Of a stretch of 64,000 bases of DNA, positions 53,759 through 64,000 are shown piece after piece. Positions within the stretch are counted from its first letter, which is position 1. Every line of letters begins with the position of its first letter. The DNA is from Chitinophaga pinensis (lineage in GTDB: Bacteria > Bacteroidota > Bacteroidia > Flavobacteriales_D > Crocinitomicaceae): contig CAMAZP010000004.1 of NCBI GenBank assembly GCA_945863605.1, positions 1 to 64,000 on the forward strand. The letters run 5' to 3'. The notes below the pieces were generated by a model. The model was given only the letters and a program-made list of their open reading frames with translations. It had not been told where the DNA came from and did not search any database. The translations under genes were made by a program, and so were the position numbers.

Positions 53759-54130
53759 ATGCATTCCAATAATCATTACAACCAAAACCTAAAAGAATTT
53801 GCTCGAGAACTTCGAACAGAAACTGTTTCTAAAGCTGAGAAATTATTATGGAATGCAGTTTTATCAAGAAAGCAATCAGGTGAACGATTTTTGCGTCAGC
53901 GACCAATTGATAATTTCATAGTTGATTTCTTTGCTCCTGATTTAGGATTGATTATTGAAATTGATGGAAGTTCGCACGCAAACAAAGGAGAGTATGACTT
54001 TTATCGCCAACAAAAACTGGAAGGTTTAGGATATGTTATGATTCGATTTTCAGAAGGAGAAGTACTGCAGACTGTTGGTTTGGTCAAAGAAAAGATTGAT
54101 TATGCGATTGTTTGTTTGAAAAATGGGTAG
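53759..54130 (+). CDS. DUF559 endonuclease-like protein (PD-(D/E)XK fold)
   Basis: A 123-residue protein of the DUF559/Vsr-like group. The N-terminal helix has LRTETVSKAEKLLWNAV, then RFLRQRPIDNF. The nuclease core is IVDFFAP (D56) followed by GLIIEIDGSSH (E67, D69), the D-x(n)-E-x-D pattern, then YDFYRQQKLEGLGYVMIRFSEGEV. It is complete and well preserved. It stands between two long direct repeats and next to an inverted half copy, which suggests that gene and repeats move or spread together. The target sequence is unknown. Confidence 0.88.
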   Translation: MHSNNHYNQNLKEFARELRTETVSKAEKLLWNAVLSRKQSGERFLRQRPIDNFIVDFFAPDLGLIIEIDGSSHANKGEYDFYRQQKLEGLGYVMIRFSEGEVLQTVGLVKEKIDYAIVCLKNG

Positions 54131-55931: not shown

Positions 55932-57197
55932 ATGAAATTTTTTCAAAAGCCTGTTCTTTTTTTTCTTTGGTCTTTTGCAGCAGCTTTTTTAGCATACGCT
56001 TCTATGTATGCGTTTCGAAAACCATTCAATGCAGCAAGTTATACTGGGTTTGAGTTGTTTAATTTACCACTTAAAGATTTGTTGTTGATCAGTCAAATTT
56101 TAGGATACATGCTTTCCAAATTCATTGGTATCAAAGTGATTTCTGAAATGACAAAAAGCACTCGTGTTGGATTGATTTTCAAATTGATACTTTTTGCTCA
56201 CGTGGCTTTATTGCTTTTTGCAATCGTTCCGGTTAATTTCAAGTTTATTTGTTTATTCGCTAATGGTTTACCGCTTGGAATGGTTTGGGGAGTGATTTTT
56301 TCATTTCTTGAAGGTCGAAAACTCACTGAACTCTTGGCAACTGGAATCGCTGTCGGAGCAATTATTTCATCTGGAATTGTTAAAAGTATCGCGCTTCACA
56401 TCATGGACAATTCCTTCTATTCGGTACCTGAATTTTGGATGCCTTTTGTGACAGGATTATTTTTCTTGCCAGTGCTTTTGATTGCTTCTTGGATGTTGAG
56501 TGTAATTCCTGAACCTAGTGAAGCTGATAAATTAGCAAAAACGGAGCGAATTCCAATGAACAAAGCACAAAAACGAAGCATCTTAAAAAAGTATCTGCCC
56601 GGAATTATCAGTTTAGTAATTCTGTATTTGATGCAAACAATTTTCAGAGATTTCAGAGATAATTTTTCGGTCGAATTGTTTAATCATTATCACTTCACCG
56701 ATAAATCTCAATTTCTAACGATGGAATTTTCCATAGGTTTTATTGTCATTTTTACCACTTCTTTATTAGTGATTTTTAAAAATAATCTGTGGGGATTTCA
56801 AGCATCCTTAATATTATCAGGGTTAGGATTTATAATGATGTTGGTCGCTGAGTTATTATTTGGTTCTGGACAAATCAACTTTTTCTACCTCATGCTATTT
56901 TCTGGATTAGGAATGAGCATAGGTTATGTTCCTTTCCAAATTGCACTTTTTGAACGATTTATTGCCGCCTTCCACATCGCTGGAAATGTTGGTTTTTTAA
57001 TGTATATTTCCGATAGTTTGGGTTATTTGGGAAGCGTTTCCATTTTGTTTTCTAAAAATGCTGGTATAATTTCAATTGATAATATTGCTTTATTTCATAT
57101 GCTAGTTATTGGATGTGGTTCTGTTGGATTAGTAGCTACTTTTTATTCAATTTTTTATTTTAGTTTTAAATTTAACAAAGAAAAAAAACAAGCATAA
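55932..57197 (+). CDS. DUF5690-family membrane transporter-like protein
   Basis: A 421-residue inner-membrane protein with about twelve hydrophobic segments, similar in shape to the major facilitator superfamily. The N terminus (FLWSFAAAFLAYASMYAFRKPFNAA) resembles the opening of sugar-phosphate/organophosphate antiporters, and GLPLGMVWGVIFSFLEGRK is a loop motif of DUF5690. The ATG at 55932 is chosen over the GTG before it. It precedes the phosphonate genes by 92 bases on the same strand, so uptake of a phosphonate across the inner membrane is a fair inference, not shown. Confidence 0.8.
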   Translation: MKFFQKPVLFFLWSFAAAFLAYASMYAFRKPFNAASYTGFELFNLPLKDLLLISQILGYMLSKFIGIKVISEMTKSTRVGLIFKLILFAHVALLLFAIVPVNFKFICLFANGLPLGMVWGVIFSFLEGRKLTELLATGIAVGAIISSGIVKSIALHIMDNSFYSVPEFWMPFVTGLFFLPVLLIASWMLSVIPEPSEADKLAKTERIPMNKAQKRSILKKYLPGIISLVILYLMQTIFRDFRDNFSVELFNHYHFTDKSQFLTMEFSIGFIVIFTTSLLVIFKNNLWGFQASLILSGLGFIMMLVAELLFGSGQINFFYLMLFSGLGMSIGYVPFQIALFERFIAAFHIAGNVGFLMYISDSLGYLGSVSILFSKNAGIISIDNIALFHMLVIGCGSVGLVATFYSIFYFSFKFNKEKKQA

Positions 57198-57253
57198 TTA
57201 ACATTAAATACATTAGCTTTTAATAAAACTATAACGTTTCAGTTCAACCTTTT

Positions 57254-57261
57254 TAGTTTTG
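57254..57261 (+). promoter_or_regulatory. Candidate -7 box for the phosphonate operon
   Basis: TAGTTTTG matches TAnnTTTG 28 bases before the first ATG of the downstream run. No good -33 element was found, and transcription could also start before the DUF5690 gene. Confidence 0.4.
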
Positions 57262-57289
57262 ATATTAGTACTTTTCGGAAATATTTAGA

Positions 57290-58333
57290 ATGCGTTATTT
57301 ACTACCAATCATAACTGTTTTGTTAATTTGCAACGCGAATTTATCTCAAAACAAAGTCTTAATTATTGGTATTGATGGGTGCAGAGCAGATGCACTTGAA
57401 AAAGCGCATACTCCAAATCTTGATTCATTAAGAAAAGCTGGTATTTATTGTCCAACTAGCTGGCAACTAGGTAAAACAAAATCAGGACCTGGTTGGTCGA
57501 GTATGTTGACTGGAGTTTGGGATTTCAAACACAATGTTTCGGATAATCAATTTTCAAATCACAATTTTGAGAAATTTCCTTTTTTTCCAAGTTATGTAAA
57601 ACGCTTAGATGCATCTAAAAAATCGGTACTCGTTGTTGGCTGGAAATCATTATTTAAGGTTTCAAAAAATAAAGGGTGGGATACTTGTATAAAAGGTAAA
57701 AATGATAATGATTGTTTATCTAAAACGATTAATCTATTAAAAAATGATTCATTTGATATCAATATGATTCATCTTAATGACGTTGATTTTTCTGGTCACA
57801 CAACTGGTTTTGAATTAGATAACAAAAAATACATTGAAGCTATCGAAGAAGCAGATCGAAAAATTGGAAAACTACTATATGCAATTAAAAATAGACCAAA
57901 TTTTAAAAATGAAAATTGGTTGATTTTATCAAGTACAGACCATGGAGGAACAAAAAAACATCACTCTGGTAATTCGGTTGAAGAGCGAAAAGTTTGGTGG
58001 ATTGCTTCATCAAATCAAATTCAAAAACTTGAAATACGAGCGAATGACCCCGGTTCTTATTTTTATGAAAATATGCCAACCGACACAAGTATTATTAAAT
58101 TCTATCCAAGTATTGTTGATATTGCAGTAACCGCGATAAACCACCTTTTTCCATCTTTAAATAATTCTGATTTCAAAGCTTGGGGATTGGACGGTAAGTC
58201 ATGGGTGGATTTTAAGGTGAATGATTCTAGAGAATTAATTTCTGAAAATGACTTTACATTTGATAATGATGAACTATTATTTTACAATAATGAATGTTCA
58301 ATAGAAATAAAAATTAACGAATTTAAAAAATGA
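57290..58333 (+). CDS. Exported alkaline phosphatase-superfamily phosphodiesterase-type enzyme
   Basis: A 347-residue protein with a signal peptide (LPIITVLLICNANLS). It belongs to the type I phosphodiesterase/nucleotide pyrophosphatase branch: KVLIIGIDGCRADAL carries the first metal aspartate, KSGPGWSSMLTGVW the likely nucleophile serine region, HLNDVDFSGHTTGF and STDHGGTKKHH the other metal ligands. Relatives cleave phosphodiesters, and phosphonoacetate hydrolase is in the same superfamily. The stop overlaps the phnX ATG (ATGA), so the enzyme is part of the phosphonate operon and may release a phosphonate head group outside the cytoplasm. Confidence 0.82.
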   Translation: MRYLLPIITVLLICNANLSQNKVLIIGIDGCRADALEKAHTPNLDSLRKAGIYCPTSWQLGKTKSGPGWSSMLTGVWDFKHNVSDNQFSNHNFEKFPFFPSYVKRLDASKKSVLVVGWKSLFKVSKNKGWDTCIKGKNDNDCLSKTINLLKNDSFDINMIHLNDVDFSGHTTGFELDNKKYIEAIEEADRKIGKLLYAIKNRPNFKNENWLILSSTDHGGTKKHHSGNSVEERKVWWIASSNQIQKLEIRANDPGSYFYENMPTDTSIIKFYPSIVDIAVTAINHLFPSLNNSDFKAWGLDGKSWVDFKVNDSRELISENDFTFDNDELLFYNNECSIEIKINEFKK

Positions 58334-59124
58334 GTAAATCAATAAAAGCTGTTATTTTTGATTGGGCAGGAACGATGATCGATTTTGGATGTATGGCGCC
58401 TGTTAAAGCATTCATCGGTGCGTTTGAAGAAAAAAACATTCACATCACCTTAGAAGAAGCGCGCGAACCAATGGGTTTAGCAAAACGAGATCACGTGAAA
58501 GCAATTTTAAGTGGAGAAAGGGTAAAAAATGAATGGATTAAATTACATGGATCTCTGCCTACAGAAAGTGATATCGATGAGATTTACCACATTGTTACAC
58601 CAAAAATGATGTTGGAAATTGAAAATAATTCAGAGCCGATTGAAGGAATTATCGAAATCATTGAAAAATTAAAATCACATGGAATTAAAATTGGTTCAAC
58701 AACCGGCTACATTGACATAATGATGGAAAAAATTATTCCTGCTGCAGCAGCAAAAGGTTTAATTGTTGATTCTGCTATCAATTCTTCAGATTGCAAAGAA
58801 GGAAGACCAAGTCCATTTATGATTTTCAGAAATATGGAAAATCTTGGAATTTATGATGTGTGTGAAGTTTTAAAAGTTGGTGACACAGTTGCTGATGTTG
58901 GTGAAGGGGTGAATGCTGGAGCCTGGACAGCTGCTGTTGTTTGTTCTGGAAATGAAATTGGTTTACCTCAATCAAAATTCAATGATTTATCTGAAGATGC
59001 TAAAAATCAAATGGTTAATACAGCTTCTGAAAAACTTAAAATCGCAGGAGCAAATTATATAATTAATAATATGGATGAATTATTTTCAGTAATTGAAGAT
59101 ATTAATAACAAATTAAAAGCTTAA
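58330..59124 (+). CDS. phnX: Phosphonoacetaldehyde hydrolase (phosphonatase)
   Basis: A 264-residue cytoplasmic HAD enzyme that splits phosphonoacetaldehyde into acetaldehyde and phosphate. The nucleophile is D11 in VIFDWAGT, and the cap domain has REPMGLAKRDHV with K52, the Schiff-base lysine that distinguishes true PhnX from other HAD proteins. Later motifs are GSTTGY and DCKEGRPSPFM, then KVGDTVADVGEGVNAG. It normally acts after PhnW converts 2-aminoethylphosphonate; no phnW is in the window but it may lie to the right. Start overlaps the preceding gene by four bases. Confidence 0.95.
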   Translation: MSKSIKAVIFDWAGTMIDFGCMAPVKAFIGAFEEKNIHITLEEAREPMGLAKRDHVKAILSGERVKNEWIKLHGSLPTESDIDEIYHIVTPKMMLEIENNSEPIEGIIEIIEKLKSHGIKIGSTTGYIDIMMEKIIPAAAAKGLIVDSAINSSDCKEGRPSPFMIFRNMENLGIYDVCEVLKVGDTVADVGEGVNAGAWTAAVVCSGNEIGLPQSKFNDLSEDAKNQMVNTASEKLKIAGANYIINNMDELFSVIEDINNKLKA

Positions 59125-59139
59125 CTTAAACCTCTATTT

Positions 59140-60384
59140 ATGAAACGATTAATTCTACTTTCTTTAACATTATTTACTACTTCAACGCTTGTTTATTCTC
59201 AGTGTGAACCGCTTACTTCTGTAACAAACATATATCAACCAGTTGGATTTATTCCTCTACCAACAGATGGAAAATTAGCTCCAAGTCAATTTTTTTGTTA
59301 CCCAGGGCAACCTTTCGATGCAATTTTAACAGCATTGGCTCCTCAAACATTCATAATCGACAATCCAATTGGTTTTCCTCCAACAATTAATGTTAACGTA
59401 AATTGGATTCGACTAACTGATATACAAAACCTACCATCTTGGGTTTCTTATTCTTGTGGTGGACAATTAGATCCAGCTGATCCATGTAAAATGGCATTCC
59501 CAACTTGGAGTTGTGTACGTGCTTTTTCCAATCAACCAGATGGAAAAGTACCTTTGACAGAGGTACCTGGAACAACTTACTCACTTGATGTAATTGTTGA
59601 CGCAGATGTTAATCCACTTGGAACCCAATCAAATTTTAACGGTGGAAGTATTACATTATTCGTGTTGGAAAATATGTCTTTAACTATTGATTTGGATTCG
59701 TGTAACGGTGGTCAAGCTATTGCTAACGCACAAGGTGGATTTGGAGATGCAGCAGCCTACACGTATGAATGGAGTAATGGTGACGATTTACAAGTTTCAA
59801 GTGGTTTAAATAATGGTTGGCTTTCTTGTATTGTTACCGATCAAGTTACTGGTTGGACAGCTATTGATAGTGTATTTGTTGAATCGACATTAGCACCTAT
59901 TATCATAGAGGATGAAATTATAACTCAACCTACTGGTAATAATGGCGCTATCTCAGTGACAGCTTCAGGAGGTCAAGGAAATCTAACTTTTGAATGGACA
60001 GGTCCAAATGGATTTACAGCTTCCTCAGCTTCAATTTCAAATTTGGCTGGTGGTCAATATACACTTACAATTACTGATATGAATGGTTGTAGTATAACTG
60101 AAATCTATAATTTAAGTACTGCTTCAATCATTGAAATGGTTGATAATTCAATAAGTATTTATCCAAATCCAGCATCAGACTTTGTTATAATAAAAAATGC
60201 AAATAACGCACAGACTTTGAAAGTTGAAATCTATTCAATGGATGGGAAAATAGTTCAATCAGAGAAGTTATTCTCAGTAAACTCAGAATATAAATTGATG
60301 TTAAATAACTTGTTTTCAGGAAAATACCTTTTAAAAATAGTGACTGGAGATAAAATTGCTTTGCGTCACATTTCTGTAAACTAA
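59140..60384 (+). CDS. Type IX-secreted SprB-repeat protein inside the phosphonate operon
   Basis: A 414-residue exported protein. Signal peptide to about residue 20 (STLVYSQ). The first 170 residues are a beta-rich domain with paired cysteines (YSCGGQLDPADPCKMAFPTWSC) that I do not recognise. Two SprB-like repeats follow (GGFGDAAAYTYEWSNG; SGGQGNLTFEWTGPNG, then YTLTITDMNGC), and the last 80 residues are a type A sorting domain (SIYPNPASDFVIIK, then YLLKIVTG). It is 15 bases after phnX and 6 before the next gene, so it is co-expressed. Probably surface-bound; role unknown, perhaps substrate capture. Confidence 0.8.
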   Translation: MKRLILLSLTLFTTSTLVYSQCEPLTSVTNIYQPVGFIPLPTDGKLAPSQFFCYPGQPFDAILTALAPQTFIIDNPIGFPPTINVNVNWIRLTDIQNLPSWVSYSCGGQLDPADPCKMAFPTWSCVRAFSNQPDGKVPLTEVPGTTYSLDVIVDADVNPLGTQSNFNGGSITLFVLENMSLTIDLDSCNGGQAIANAQGGFGDAAAYTYEWSNGDDLQVSSGLNNGWLSCIVTDQVTGWTAIDSVFVESTLAPIIIEDEIITQPTGNNGAISVTASGGQGNLTFEWTGPNGFTASSASISNLAGGQYTLTITDMNGCSITEIYNLSTASIIEMVDNSISIYPNPASDFVIIKNANNAQTLKVEIYSMDGKIVQSEKLFSVNSEYKLMLNNLFSGKYLLKIVTGDKIALRHISVN

Positions 60385-60390
60385 AATTTG

Positions 60391-61071
60391 ATGATTTTAG
60401 ATTCAATTAAGTTGGTGGTTTTAGACATGGCTGGTACAACGGTTAACGATACGTTTTCTGTTCATGATGCTATGATTAAAGCATTTCAAGACCATGATTT
60501 AGTTATTGATCGAAAAATTGCTTCGAATGTACTTGCTGTTCCAAAACCAATTGGTATTGAAGGGATTCTTGTGAATAATTTTGAAATTAAAGCTGCTCAA
60601 TTAGTTGAGAATATCCATGATTCATTCAAATTTCACATGAATTCTTATTATAAAAAGAGTGATTTGGTGGCTGAAACAAAAGACACAGAAAAGTTTTTTT
60701 CTTTTTTAAAAGAAAGAAATATTAAAATTGTACTTGATACAGGATTTTCAAAGGAAACAGCGGATTTAATTATTGATCGTTTGCAATGGCATTCAGTTAT
60801 AGATGGTTTAGTTTGTAGTGATGACCCTTCAATTGGTCGCCCAAAACCAGATATGATACATAAAGCAATGCAAATCTCAGGAGTCAAGGATAGCAAACAC
60901 GTGATGAAAGTAGGCGACACCCCAAACGATATGTTACAAGGTAAAAATGCGAATTGTAGGTGGACAATTGGAATTATTTCTGGAGCTTTTACTACAATCG
61001 ATTTACTAAATTCTGGTGCTGATTTTATAGTTGATTATCCATTTGAAATAATTAAGATTAAAGAAATATAA
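60391..61071 (+). CDS. Phosphonatase-like HAD hydrolase (TIGR03351 type)
   Basis: A 226-residue HAD protein from the ATG at 60391. The nucleophile is D12 in LVVLDMAGTT; later motifs are LDTGFSKETADLI, DDPSIGRPKPDM and MKVGDTPNDM. It resembles PhnX but the cap segment (ASNVLAVPKPIGIEGIL) lacks the Schiff-base lysine, so it should not use the PhnX mechanism. This matches the phosphonatase-like family TIGR03351, known to sit beside FAD oxidoreductases of the TIGR03364 type. Its substrate is not defined; a hydroxylated phosphonoacetaldehyde or a phosphate ester is possible. The FAD gene begins two bases after its stop. Confidence 0.88.
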   Translation: MILDSIKLVVLDMAGTTVNDTFSVHDAMIKAFQDHDLVIDRKIASNVLAVPKPIGIEGILVNNFEIKAAQLVENIHDSFKFHMNSYYKKSDLVAETKDTEKFFSFLKERNIKIVLDTGFSKETADLIIDRLQWHSVIDGLVCSDDPSIGRPKPDMIHKAMQISGVKDSKHVMKVGDTPNDMLQGKNANCRWTIGIISGAFTTIDLLNSGADFIVDYPFEIIKIKEI

Positions 61072-61073
61072 CG

Positions 61074-62228
61074 ATGAAAAAATACGATTTAGCTATCGTT
61101 GGTGGCGGGGTTTTAGGTACTTTTCATGCGTATCACGCAGCTTTACTTGGACTTAAAGTAATTGTCCTAGAAAAAGATTTATTTCCAATGGAAGCAAGTG
61201 TTAGAAATTTTGGACAAGTTGTTCCTTCAGGATTTTCGGTCGGAAGATGGCATCATTACGGGCGTTATTCAACTCAATTGTATAAATCTTTTCAAGAGAA
61301 AATCGACATCGGAATCAGAAATAATGGTTCAACTTATATTGCTTCAACTCAAGATGAATTGGATTTATTACATGAGTTAAAAACAAATTTCGAAGCTGCG
61401 GATTACCATTCTGTTATACTTTCCAAAGAAGAATTATTAGCTAAATATCCATCTGTTGATTCAAAATATGCGCTTGGTGCTTTGTCTTTTCCGCAAGAAG
61501 TTTCTGCAGAATCGAGAGAAATGATTCACAGTCTTCATGCCTTTTTAAGAGAAACGACAACAATCGAGTTCAGCTATGCAACGCCAGTAATTGGAATCGA
61601 AGACAAAGAAACGGAGGTTGAATTACAAACTTCTAATCTAGGTAAAATTCTAGCTACAAAAGCAATTGTTTGTAATGGTAAAGACTTTCGTCTGTTGTTC
61701 CCCGATTTGTTTTCAAAATCAGCTATTGAAGTGGTAAAATTAGGGATGATGGTTACAAAACCAATGCCTGAAGTTAAACTACCTGGTAATATTTTAACAG
61801 GTTTGACAATTCGAAGATACGAGAGTTTTAAAGCACTTGAAGGTTACAAAAACTTAAATTGGGAAAATGTTAATCAAGAAGCTTTAAAATATGGAATTCA
61901 CATTCTTTTCAAGCAACGTGTAGATGGAAGTATTGTCATTGGCGATAGTCATTTATACGCTGATGCTTCGCAAAATGAAGAATTAGGTTTCGACATTGAT
62001 ATGTCAATCAATCATATTATTTTGGACGAGGCGAAGAAAATTCTAAACCTTAAAAATTGGGATATTCAACATTATTGGAATGGATACTATTCACAAATGA
62101 AAGGACATGAGGAGATTTTTGATAGTCAGATTACTCCAAACATTAAAGTTGTTACCGCAATCGGCGGAAAAGGAATGACTGCATCAGCTGGTTTTTCTAA
62201 AGAAAGTATTGATAATTTCTTCTTCTAA
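61074..62228 (+). CDS. FAD-dependent oxidoreductase, aminophosphonate-associated (TIGR03364 type)
   Basis: A 384-residue enzyme of the glycine-oxidase-like DAO fold. The N terminus has the FAD motif DLAIVGGGVLGTFHAYHAA, followed by EKDLFPMEASVRNFGQV, and the C-terminal half has HYWNGYYSQMKGH and TAIGGKGMTASAGFS. Members with this placement, next to a phosphonatase-like HAD gene, are proposed to oxidatively deaminate or demethylate aminophosphonates close to 2-aminoethylphosphonate, giving an aldehyde for the HAD enzyme. It lies 2 bases after the HAD gene and 11 before the TonB receptor. Confidence 0.88.
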   Translation: MKKYDLAIVGGGVLGTFHAYHAALLGLKVIVLEKDLFPMEASVRNFGQVVPSGFSVGRWHHYGRYSTQLYKSFQEKIDIGIRNNGSTYIASTQDELDLLHELKTNFEAADYHSVILSKEELLAKYPSVDSKYALGALSFPQEVSAESREMIHSLHAFLRETTTIEFSYATPVIGIEDKETEVELQTSNLGKILATKAIVCNGKDFRLLFPDLFSKSAIEVVKLGMMVTKPMPEVKLPGNILTGLTIRRYESFKALEGYKNLNWENVNQEALKYGIHILFKQRVDGSIVIGDSHLYADASQNEELGFDIDMSINHIILDEAKKILNLKNWDIQHYWNGYYSQMKGHEEIFDSQITPNIKVVTAIGGKGMTASAGFSKESIDNFFF

Positions 62229-62239
62229 TAAAATAGTTT

Positions 62240-64000
62240 ATGAAGTATTTTAAGTTTATTTTACCAACGCTTATAATAGTTTTTGTTTCTAACTTCATTT
62301 TGACACAAACAAGCAGTGTTCAAGGAACTGTTAAAGATAGGAGGGGTGTTATACCAAGTGCAAAAGTTATTATTCAAAATACCGAATTCAAAACGATTTG
62401 TGATTTTGATGGAAAGTTCTATTTCAAAGGAATGAATGCTGGTACTTACACGTTAACGATTGACCTTACAGGTTACACTATTTTCGAAAAATCATTTAGT
62501 TTAAGTAAGGACGAAAATCTAAATTTAGGAGATTTATTTCTAAAAGAGATTCAAGAATTAAATGAAGTTACTGTTACAACTTATGCTAAAACAAGCGAGA
62601 ACAAAGCACTTTATTTAGTCAAAAATTCTCCAACAGTTGTAACAGTCGTTTCTTCTGACATCATTGCTAAACTTCCAAATAGAAATGCATCTGATGTTGT
62701 AGCGCGAGTTCCGGGAGCATCAATAACAAGAAACAAAGGAGAAGGAAGTAATATTTCATTGCGCGGTACTCCCTTGGATTGGACAGCGACTTTTTTGAAT
62801 GGCGACCGTTTGCCTGTTGCAGATGAAGAAAATGCAACGCGTTCGTTTGAGTTTGAAATTCTTCCTGCGGACATGATAGAATATGTATTCGTTTCAAAAA
62901 GCTCAACTCCAGACATGGAATCCGATCAAATCGGCGGAAGTATTAATTTCCTAGCAAGAAATACAGTCCAAGAAAAAACTTTCAAACTGAATGTTGCTGG
63001 TGGTTATAATTTATTGGCAAATAAACCTACAGGTGTTTTTAATTTTTTAGTCGGAAATGTTTCTAAAAACAAGAAATTGAGCTACTTATTAAATGGTTCT
63101 GCTTTTGCTCGCTATTACTCTGCTGATGCTTTCAAAATCATTTATGGTAGTAATTTTAATCATAGTTTAAATCGCTATGAGTTAAAAAAATACGATGGAA
63201 CACGCACCAATATTTCAGCAAACACAGCTATTCAATATAAATTCAGCGATAAGTTCAAAATCGGAACCCACTTTTTGTACAGCTTCATGTTGGATGATAA
63301 ATACCAAAAAAAACAAAGCTACAACTGGTACGAAGGATCAGGACAAAGAATCCGTTTACAAAATATTCATGGGAAATTAGAACGTCAACTTTTTGGTGGC
63401 GACATTTATTCTGAATGGAACATTAACCCTTCGCTGAAATGGTTTTTCAAAGTTGCGAGTTATGATAATAGTTTTCGCTACGGTAAAGTTCCTTTCAACC
63501 AAAGAGACCCGCGAAATGGTTATATGATTACAGAATTCATCAGTCCTTTAATGCAGTTTGAAGACCAATCTTACGTTAGTTTGTATGGCGATCAAATCGA
63601 TATCAACGACCCAAATGGATTTCCAGGGAAGTTAATTGGTCCTGATGACCCGTATGGAAATGGTGACGATCCAAACAATATTCAGCCACAGTATTCAACC
63701 ATTTTTGGAGCACAAACTTTAAATGCAAGTGACTTTGAATTTTATCAAACCTACACAGAAATAAACGAAACAAGAGAACGTGATTTGCCTGTAATTCAAA
63801 CAGATTTGGATTATAAACTAAACAATAACTTGAAGTTTAAATTCGGCTCAAAAGCACGTATAAAAAGTGGTTATCGCAATATTTCAAAATACGAATGGTT
63901 TAAAGATTATTCGATTCCAGGAAATAATCAACCTTTTACCTTAGATCAATTTCCACATGATCCATACACTGATAATAGAAATGGATTTCTTGCGCCATTA
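62240..64000 (+). CDS. TonB-dependent outer-membrane receptor (partial)
   Basis: The first 587 codons of an outer-membrane transporter; the rest lies beyond the window. A signal peptide ends near residue 24, then comes a carboxypeptidase-like domain (VQGTVKDRRGVIPSAKVIIQNT, about 27-105), the TonB-box/plug region (ELNEVTVTTYAK, then NSPTVVTVVSSDII, KLPNRNASDVVARVPGASI and ISLRGTP) and the beginning of the barrel. The frame is open to the last base. No SusD partner is visible before the edge. It is 11 bases after the FAD oxidoreductase gene, so it probably imports the phosphonate compound used by this operon, energised by TonB. Confidence 0.93.
   Translation, partial: MKYFKFILPTLIIVFVSNFILTQTSSVQGTVKDRRGVIPSAKVIIQNTEFKTICDFDGKFYFKGMNAGTYTLTIDLTGYTIFEKSFSLSKDENLNLGDLFLKEIQELNEVTVTTYAKTSENKALYLVKNSPTVVTVVSSDIIAKLPNRNASDVVARVPGASITRNKGEGSNISLRGTPLDWTATFLNGDRLPVADEENATRSFEFEILPADMIEYVFVSKSSTPDMESDQIGGSINFLARNTVQEKTFKLNVAGGYNLLANKPTGVFNFLVGNVSKNKKLSYLLNGSAFARYYSADAFKIIYGSNFNHSLNRYELKKYDGTRTNISANTAIQYKFSDKFKIGTHFLYSFMLDDKYQKKQSYNWYEGSGQRIRLQNIHGKLERQLFGGDIYSEWNINPSLKWFFKVASYDNSFRYGKVPFNQRDPRNGYMITEFISPLMQFEDQSYVSLYGDQIDINDPNGFPGKLIGPDDPYGNGDDPNNIQPQYSTIFGAQTLNASDFEFYQTYTEINETRERDLPVIQTDLDYKLNNNLKFKFGSKARIKSGYRNISKYEWFKDYSIPGNNQPFTLDQFPHDPYTDNRNGFLAPL

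Follow-up and report, generated by a model that had tools for sequence, protein, structure and literature searches.

Introduction

On the catabolic side of the use of 2-aminoethylphosphonate (AEP), the four pathways listed in PMC10590968 terminate in PhnX or PhnA. PbfC and PbfD enzymes yield phosphonoacetaldehyde from N-methyl-AEP; PbfD1, which is annotated as TIGR03364, oxidizes N-methyl-AEP to this aldehyde, and PbfD2 is also efficient on AEP (PMC10590968). NCBI notes quoted in the same paper suggest 1-hydroxy-AEP as a substrate of TIGR03364 proteins and describe their genes as syntenic with phosphonatase-like enzymes. On the side of import, inorganic phosphate-responsive PusCD importers have been reported beside phosphonate-degrading genes in Flavobacterium, and Pus (phosphate utilization system) loci are described as scavengers of varied organic phosphorus (PMC8115612). 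Here we analyse a probable phosphonate locus in a stretch of 64,000 nucleotides (the window), with which contig C4 (CAMAZP010000004.1; 138 kb) of a nearly complete Bacteroidota genome of 3.09 Mb (GCA_945863605.1) begins. An earlier note on this DNA had read seven of its genes as a single system for the acquisition and breakdown of phosphonates.

Results

Our preferred reading, which we hold with moderate confidence, is that aminophosphonates (AEP, N-methyl-AEP and, probably, esters of these) are imported and mineralized by the products of the locus along a path from the cell surface to the cytoplasm. The seven genes are all present on the plus strand of the window (profile scores in Table 1), and the gaps given in the earlier note from the phosphodiesterase gene AP1 onward (−4, 15, 6, 2 and 11 bases) are exact; 92 bases separate the DUF5690 gene from AP1. 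The row extends beyond the window to a total of eleven plus-strand genes, reaching approximately 73.2 kb of C4, and TBDR1 overlaps TBDR2 by 4 bases if the latter starts at 65179, a start chosen among in-frame ATGs. In the mechanism that we propose, surface proteins with type IX secretion tails (the LamG/Fn3 protein, AP2 and the PhoD-like phosphatase) would bind and trim phosphorus-bearing material, the TonB-dependent receptors TBDR1 and TBDR2 would move a phosphonate or small conjugate across the outer membrane, and periplasmic AP1 would hydrolyse the ester and free the head group. The DUF5690 permease would then bring the head group into the cytoplasm. There the PbfD-type enzyme would convert it by oxidation into phosphonoacetaldehyde, from which PhnX would release phosphate, HAD2 serving as a second C–P hydrolase. 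The PbfD and PhnX reactions have been shown for these protein families elsewhere and are carried over by analogy, while the substrates given to DUF5690, the receptors and AP1/AP2 (an ester) are ones that we infer. A large or conjugated substrate is plausible, and the suggestion of the earlier note that it would be too large for porins, for example a phosphonolipid or phosphonoglycan, may hold in view of the exported phosphodiesterases and the LamG domain.

Gene order in relatives supports the view that the import and catabolism genes belong together. G148, a genome from the genus of the window's own, and L075, a contig of a Flavobacteriia metagenome-assembled genome, share the order AP1-PhnX-T9a-HAD2-PbfD-TBDR1-TBDR2 at approximately 48–73% identity, T9a being kept in both at about 50%, and this conserved core indicates that the arrangement is more than chance; the two may represent one lineage or close kin. 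A receptor and a secreted protein, whose absence beside phnX in related genomes would, according to the earlier note, have spoken against a single system, stand next to phnX in both. The full order in G148 is T9lamG-AP2-DUF5690-AP1-PhnX-T9a-HAD2-PbfD-TBDR1-TBDR2 (48–76% identity), with the LamG and AP2 genes upstream here and downstream at the window locus. No PhoD-like gene was labelled at the G148 locus, and no DUF5690, LamG or AP2 gene on the 20.8-kb L075 stretch.

A survey of 395 genomes of the phylum detected the DUF5690 family (PF18943) in 42, at 47 loci, with no more than four first-look candidates scored per genome. The 46 loci other than the window were examined as stretches of 12–20 kb, in which genes were labelled by BLAST against reference proteins with bit thresholds set by us (these labels miss some genes, for example the PhnX of G543 in L195 and the PhnA of G420 in L187), and PhnX, PhnW, HAD2, PbfD, PbfA or Phn-HD served as phosphonate markers. 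At least one marker was present at 33 of the 46. An importer of the SusC_phn/TBDR1 type accompanied 18 of these 33 and none of the 13 unmarked loci (one-sided Fisher p 0.0004), and an exported phosphodiesterase or phosphoesterase 22 of the 33 as against 1 of the 13 (p 0.0003), values that are indicative and overstate the case because the sampled genomes are related; SusC fragments at the stretch ends of L063, L073 and L187 were left out of the importer count. Thirteen control stretches with arbitrary positions, from 13 of these genomes, held no marker or importer over threshold, and four of them contained one weak aminotransferase or receptor match each.

Searches with the receptors themselves covered the 44 genomes, other than the window's own, that carry DUF5690 or TIGR03364, the best 17–19 candidates per genome being scored. 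Seven relatives of TBDR1 reached 288 bits or more (the next best match had 168); six are at phosphonate loci and the remaining one (G805, L231) is some 30 kb from the locus with no marker near. Fifteen SusC_phn matches reached 630 bits or more, ten of them at a phosphonate locus; two others are elsewhere and have Phn-HD and a phosphoesterase next to them (L227, L228), two are markerless (L229, L230), and one, in G865, is on a contig end while its other half seems to lie at the phosphonate locus. With 12 of the 15 strong SusC_phn matches adjoining a marker, the receptors are mostly, not wholly, tied to phosphonate genes.

A further survey was anchored on phnX and took in the best 80 of at least 564 loci, sorted by record title. 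Within these 80, eleven of the 14 loci from non-gut Bacteroidota have a SusC_phn/SusD_phn pair, one (L075) has TBDR1 and two (L078, L106) have neither, giving a SusC- or TBDR1-type importer at 12 of 14; all five loci from gut Bacteroidales read DUF5690-phnX-phnW and none has an importer. The other 61 are devoid of SusC_phn and DUF5690 over threshold, and one (L114) carries a TBDR1-type receptor. Relatives' loci contain SusD, phnW, pbfA and Phn-HD genes, the single PbfA that was scanned scoring 709, over its curated cut-off of 525, and the Phn-HD example from L020 scoring 185, under its cut-off of 215. On a Hymenobacter plasmid, the existing annotation shows a row of genes for an MFS transporter, a Phn-HD oxygenase, SusC, SusD, a sulfatase-like hydrolase, an alkaline phosphatase family protein, a HAD protein (encoded on the opposite strand), an XRE regulator and TIGR03364. 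A saccharopine-dehydrogenase-like protein (PF16653/PF03435) also recurs beside phnX and pbfA (L079; L082, 8821–9984; L085) and is present at five of the 61 loci outside both Bacteroidota groups. One such protein, SDH387, was considered as PbfF and rejected, as it matches saccharopine dehydrogenase whereas PbfF is related to D-lactate dehydrogenase (PMC12366243).

Turning to the permease, DUF5690 is present in 30 of the 33 genomes with TIGR03364, compared with 42 of 395 overall. On a tree of 55 DUF5690 proteins, some long branches of which are unsure, the phosphonate label requires 5 changes as against 11.8 when shuffled (0 of 500 shufflings as low). In a fold comparison SLC37A4 came nearest, DUF5690 being a possible relative of the organophosphate antiporter (OPA) type of MFS transporters, and its likeness to GlpT is by fold; the DUF5690–GlpT sequence alignment is too weak to rely on (alignment probability 1%), with the helix-1 RK motif in register and the helix-7 arginine about one turn off. 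We predict that DUF5690 is an inner-membrane aminophosphonate permease, this substrate being our inference. Twelve genomes with DUF5690 lack TIGR03364; in seven of them PhnX, PhnA and HAD2 are all missing as well, and the DUF5690 loci of these seven have no phosphonate marker. Seven of the 13 unlinked DUF5690 proteins form one clade (L188, L194, L197, L199, L200, L201 and L204), which perhaps has a different substrate. The row DUF5690-TIGR03364-PhnX was also seen on a Novosphingobium plasmid (L241, 10761–13901) with TonB-dependent receptor genes nearby, and its presence in an alphaproteobacterium implies that the module crosses phyla.

Within the cytoplasmic part, the window PhnX retains Lys52; in PhnX this lysine forms a Schiff base. 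The TIGR03364 protein is predicted, from its family and by analogy, to convert an aminophosphonate to phosphonoacetaldehyde. No PhnW transaminase turned up in the genome, where the best match reached 39 bits against a cut-off of 401. PhnA (TIGR02335) gave no match in it at E 1e-30, and AP1 was rejected as PhnA. A self-made phosphonate as the substrate was also rejected, a search of the genome for phosphoenolpyruvate mutase at E 0.001 having found none.

HAD2 is proposed to be a second C–P hydrolase in the window. In the census HAD2 was defined as a match to TIGR01422 under that family's cut-off, which need not adjoin the gene for the FAD enzyme (that of G375 sits away from it). Of the 33 genomes among 395 with TIGR03364 at E 1e-40 or better, the window's included, 27 have HAD2 and the other six PhnA (no HAD2 at E 1e-20), with no genome having both and none lacking both; 26 have HAD2 without PhnX or PhnA over cut-off, and in the window's genome HAD2 is accompanied by PhnX. 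Were the genomes independent, which they are not, an absence of overlap would arise by chance with a probability of approximately 9e-7; family f37 includes both the HAD2 and the PhnA kind, as does f90 if G845 (no TIGR03364) is counted. Such exclusivity makes HAD2 look like a third C–P hydrolase, and these patterns support the view that it takes the place of PhnA or PhnX elsewhere. All 25 HAD2 rows that were aligned (part of the HAD2 proteins, some near-identical) retain the lysine matching Lys52 of PhnX, motif I reads DxAGT or DxSGT, and the window HAD2 has both DxAGT and the cap lysine; three ordinary HAD proteins used as controls, two from the same genome, have neither motif nor lysine. In HAD phosphatases DxD is usual. 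Three HAD2 relatives scored 241, 208 and 178 against the TIGR03351 cut-off of 219, one over and two under.

A different assignment would make HAD2 a phosphatase, or a hydrolase of another phosphonate aldehyde such as one derived from hydroxylated AEP. PhnX is already present in the window, HAD2 lacks the PhnX cap histidine and mostly the Met and Cys as well, the Phn-HD gene near many HAD2 loci fits hydroxy-phosphonates, and 1-hydroxy-AEP is the substrate suggested for TIGR03364 in the NCBI note (quoted in PMC10590968). We nevertheless regard this assignment as unlikely, if still to be reckoned with, given that motif I is not DxDG, that the lysine is kept throughout the aligned rows, and that HAD2 alternates with PhnA, whose pathways pass through phosphonoacetaldehyde. 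The pairing of TIGR03364 with TIGR03351 is itself not new, being stated in the NCBI family note quoted in PMC10590968, the main text of which does not name TIGR03351; what the present analysis adds is the alternation of HAD2 with PhnA together with the kept residues. The earlier note also gives this co-occurrence, but its description of the TIGR03364 activity as proposed is outdated, oxidation by a TIGR03364 protein having been shown (PMC10590968).

Among the exported proteins, AP1 is probably periplasmic, as it has no sorting tail and a signal judged by eye. Its relatives are XacNPP and ENPP enzymes, and D29, S65, N86, D166, H170, D217 and H218 are invariant in eight aligned sequences, the D, H and N positions being presumably metal-site residues; a Ser stands where the aligned ENPP7 has a Thr, which we take to be the nucleophile. 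The AP1 model is only fair (pLDDT 72), with parts past residue 250 under 50. L062 encodes a fusion of an AP2-like domain with LamG, and in G224 (L074) the genes for TBDR1, AP2, a LamG protein and PbfD stand in one row, so that the LamG partner is not incidental. Two other proteins were seen at the surveyed loci. One is large and exported-looking, combines repeats of beta-propeller-like character with a PF04185 phosphoesterase domain, and is encoded at several loci, mostly next to SusCD or Phn-HD (L020, 8898–11603; also L060, L061, L073, L195, L205, L227 and L228). A PHP metallohydrolase of the CehA/McbA type, with a signal-like start and a CehA/McbA score under cut-off, is found in L089 (6214–7302) and L106, both of which have phnX, phnW and pbfA beside it, with SusCD in L089.

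Table 1. Genes of the phosphonate row (positions on C4, which coincide with those of the window)
Gene product	Position	Strand	Profile match or remark
DUF5690 MFS-type (major facilitator superfamily) transporter; predicted inner-membrane aminophosphonate permease	55932..57197	+	DUF5690 435 bits (cut-off 25)
AP1, exported NPP-like phosphodiesterase, alkaline phosphatase superfamily	57290..58333	+	PF01663 Phosphodiest 72 bits (cut-off 23)
PhnX, phosphonoacetaldehyde hydrolase	58330..59124	+	TIGR01422 319 bits (cut-off 220)
T9a, type IX-secreted protein with SprB repeat	59140..60384	+	TIGR04183 Por_Secre_tail 51 bits (cut-off 23), PF18962, PF13573
HAD2, TIGR03351-like phosphonatase-like hydrolase	60391..61071	+	TIGR03351 152 bits, under cut-off 219
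PbfD-type FAD oxidoreductase	61074..62228	+	TIGR03364 364 bits (cut-off 285)
TBDR1, TonB-dependent receptor	62240..64000 in window; full 62240-65182, 980 aa	+	TonB plug and CarbopepD_reg domains
TBDR2, second TonB receptor	65179-68082	+	beyond window
LamG/Fn3 type IX secretion system (T9SS) protein	68207-70201	+	beyond window
AP2, second NPP-like phosphodiesterase, T9SS tail	70235-71461	+	beyond window
PhoD-like phosphatase, T9SS tail	71461-73248	+	beyond window

To the right of the PhoD-like gene lie minus-strand genes whose domains in a Pfam scan are unrelated to the row (SbcC, calcineurin-like, D-arabinono-lactone oxidase, Ala_racemase_N and HTH/S24) and one 169-residue protein without a Pfam match. 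The earlier note had pointed rightward for phnW, phnY/phnZ or a SusD-like gene; none of these, and no pbfA or Phn-HD, was seen in the 18 kb right of the window, SusD being likewise not found among the scanned proteins of the row, where TonB receptors are present, or the scanned genes to its right. A foreign origin was considered from base composition and set aside, since the G+C of the row (0.329) and that of window positions 1–55000 (0.332) are nearly equal and give no sign of transfer. Four matches to the −33/−7 pattern that we take to be the Bacteroidota promoter were found in 54–74 kb, all intragenic, so that the row has no such match ahead of it. Near several loci there are genes for XRE-like regulators of about 190 residues (L062, 13523–14107; L057, 6579–7157; L068, 15475–16044), a name given from sequence reading rather than from a profile, the Hymenobacter plasmid copy being annotated XRE; none was seen at the window locus. 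At window positions 53759–54130, a 123-residue DUF559 protein (PF04480, 94 bits) is encoded between peptidase and pseudouridine synthase genes.

Discussion

Several observations weigh against the reading that this locus imports and mineralizes aminophosphonates. AEP is small enough for porins, so that TonB import is not strictly needed, and the PhoD-like and NPP-like enzymes might do no more than free phosphate from ordinary esters. Fifteen of the 33 marked DUF5690 loci have no importer over threshold (three of them reach the stretch end), 13 DUF5690 loci have no phosphonate neighbour, and among the best 80 phnX loci the importer is missing at five of five gut and two of 14 other Bacteroidota loci. 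HAD2 scores 152 against the TIGR03351 cut-off of 219 and, with PhnX in the window, is not needed here as sole C–P hydrolase. The FAD enzyme shares only about 30% identity with the TIGR03364 proteins of Acinetobacter, with which it was compared. Finally, few genomes of its family have the locus: PhnX exceeds its cut-off in two of 150 genomes of the family and six of 395 of the class, the window's own counted in each.

A rival explanation is a general phosphorus-scavenging island, in which the surface and outer-membrane parts take common esters of phosphate, such as phospholipid head groups and nucleic acids, and an aminophosphonate pathway for small free AEP adjoins them only because both serve phosphate starvation. 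The PhoD-like and NPP-like families do act on ordinary esters, AEP is a small molecule, no phosphonate marker is near two of the strong SusC_phn relatives, and Pus loci take varied organic phosphorus (PMC8115612). On this explanation, which we consider rather improbable, it would be surprising that the importers track phosphonate genes and not DUF5690 alone, and that strong SusC_phn matches and TBDR1-type matches fall as often as they do at phosphonate markers. That the genes are neighbours by accident, as their rarity in the family and the shifted position of the LamG and AP2 genes in G148 might suggest, is already largely refuted by the overlapping and near-zero gaps, the synteny in G148 and L075 and the recurrence of the same parts in other families in a different order, and is most improbable; the single-system claim of the earlier note is supported.

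Beyond the single locus, we put forward more tentatively, and at somewhat less than an even chance, that Bacteroidota have widespread phosphonate loci with TonB/SusCD import of conjugates, head-group release by exported NPP-like enzymes, DUF5690 as aminophosphonate permease and a TIGR03351-like third family of phosphonoacetaldehyde hydrolases that replaces PhnX or PhnA beside PbfD. If this is true, the loci would show how Bacteroidota reach a bound form of phosphonate, and a likely transporter (DUF5690) and a likely C–P hydrolase family would be added to the markers for counting phosphonate users. A count by phnX would miss many such users, since 26 of the 33 TIGR03364 carriers have HAD2 without PhnX or PhnA over cut-off. 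The functions proposed here from sequence for DUF5690 and the TIGR03351-like proteins are new and testable. In the literature searched, mostly open-access, we found no paper naming DUF5690 or proposing its function, no study of the function of TIGR03351 (the NCBI family name is already phosphonatase-like) and no paper joining phosphonate, SusD and phnX.

Among known systems, the PbfD-PhnX pathway for AEP of the Mariniblastus fucicola type (PMC10590968) has in common with the window a TIGR03364-type FAD oxidase and PhnX without PhnW, to which the window adds HAD2, DUF5690, exported phosphodiesterases, type IX-secreted proteins and TonB receptors. The classic PhnWX pathway and the PhnWYA pathway differ in that the window's genome lacks PhnW and PhnA at the thresholds used. 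The HpnW operons of Achromobacter (PMC11203657) share a TIGR03364 protein beside phnX, with phnW outside the operon, but have a phnSTU transporter and a LysR regulator where the window has DUF5690, and the cited part of that paper names no outer-membrane parts. AepP, a GlpT-like permease for AEP (PMC8316502), is of the MFS type, as is the DUF5690 protein for which an aminophosphonate substrate is proposed here; DUF5690 is a separate Pfam family with a likeness to GlpT by fold alone. In comparison with the Pus loci, the window has TonB receptors without SusD, and the main text of PMC8115612, in the part cited, mentions none of DUF5690, PbfD, TIGR03351 and TIGR03364 and gives no gene-level phosphonate locus. 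It does, however, already report PusCD importers beside phosphonate genes, so that this kind of locus is known; the statement in the earlier note that no described phosphonate system has this set of parts stands for the parts list and not for the kind. The parts list of the window, with its TonB receptors, T9SS proteins, DUF5690, PbfD and HAD2, is a variant of that known kind of locus.

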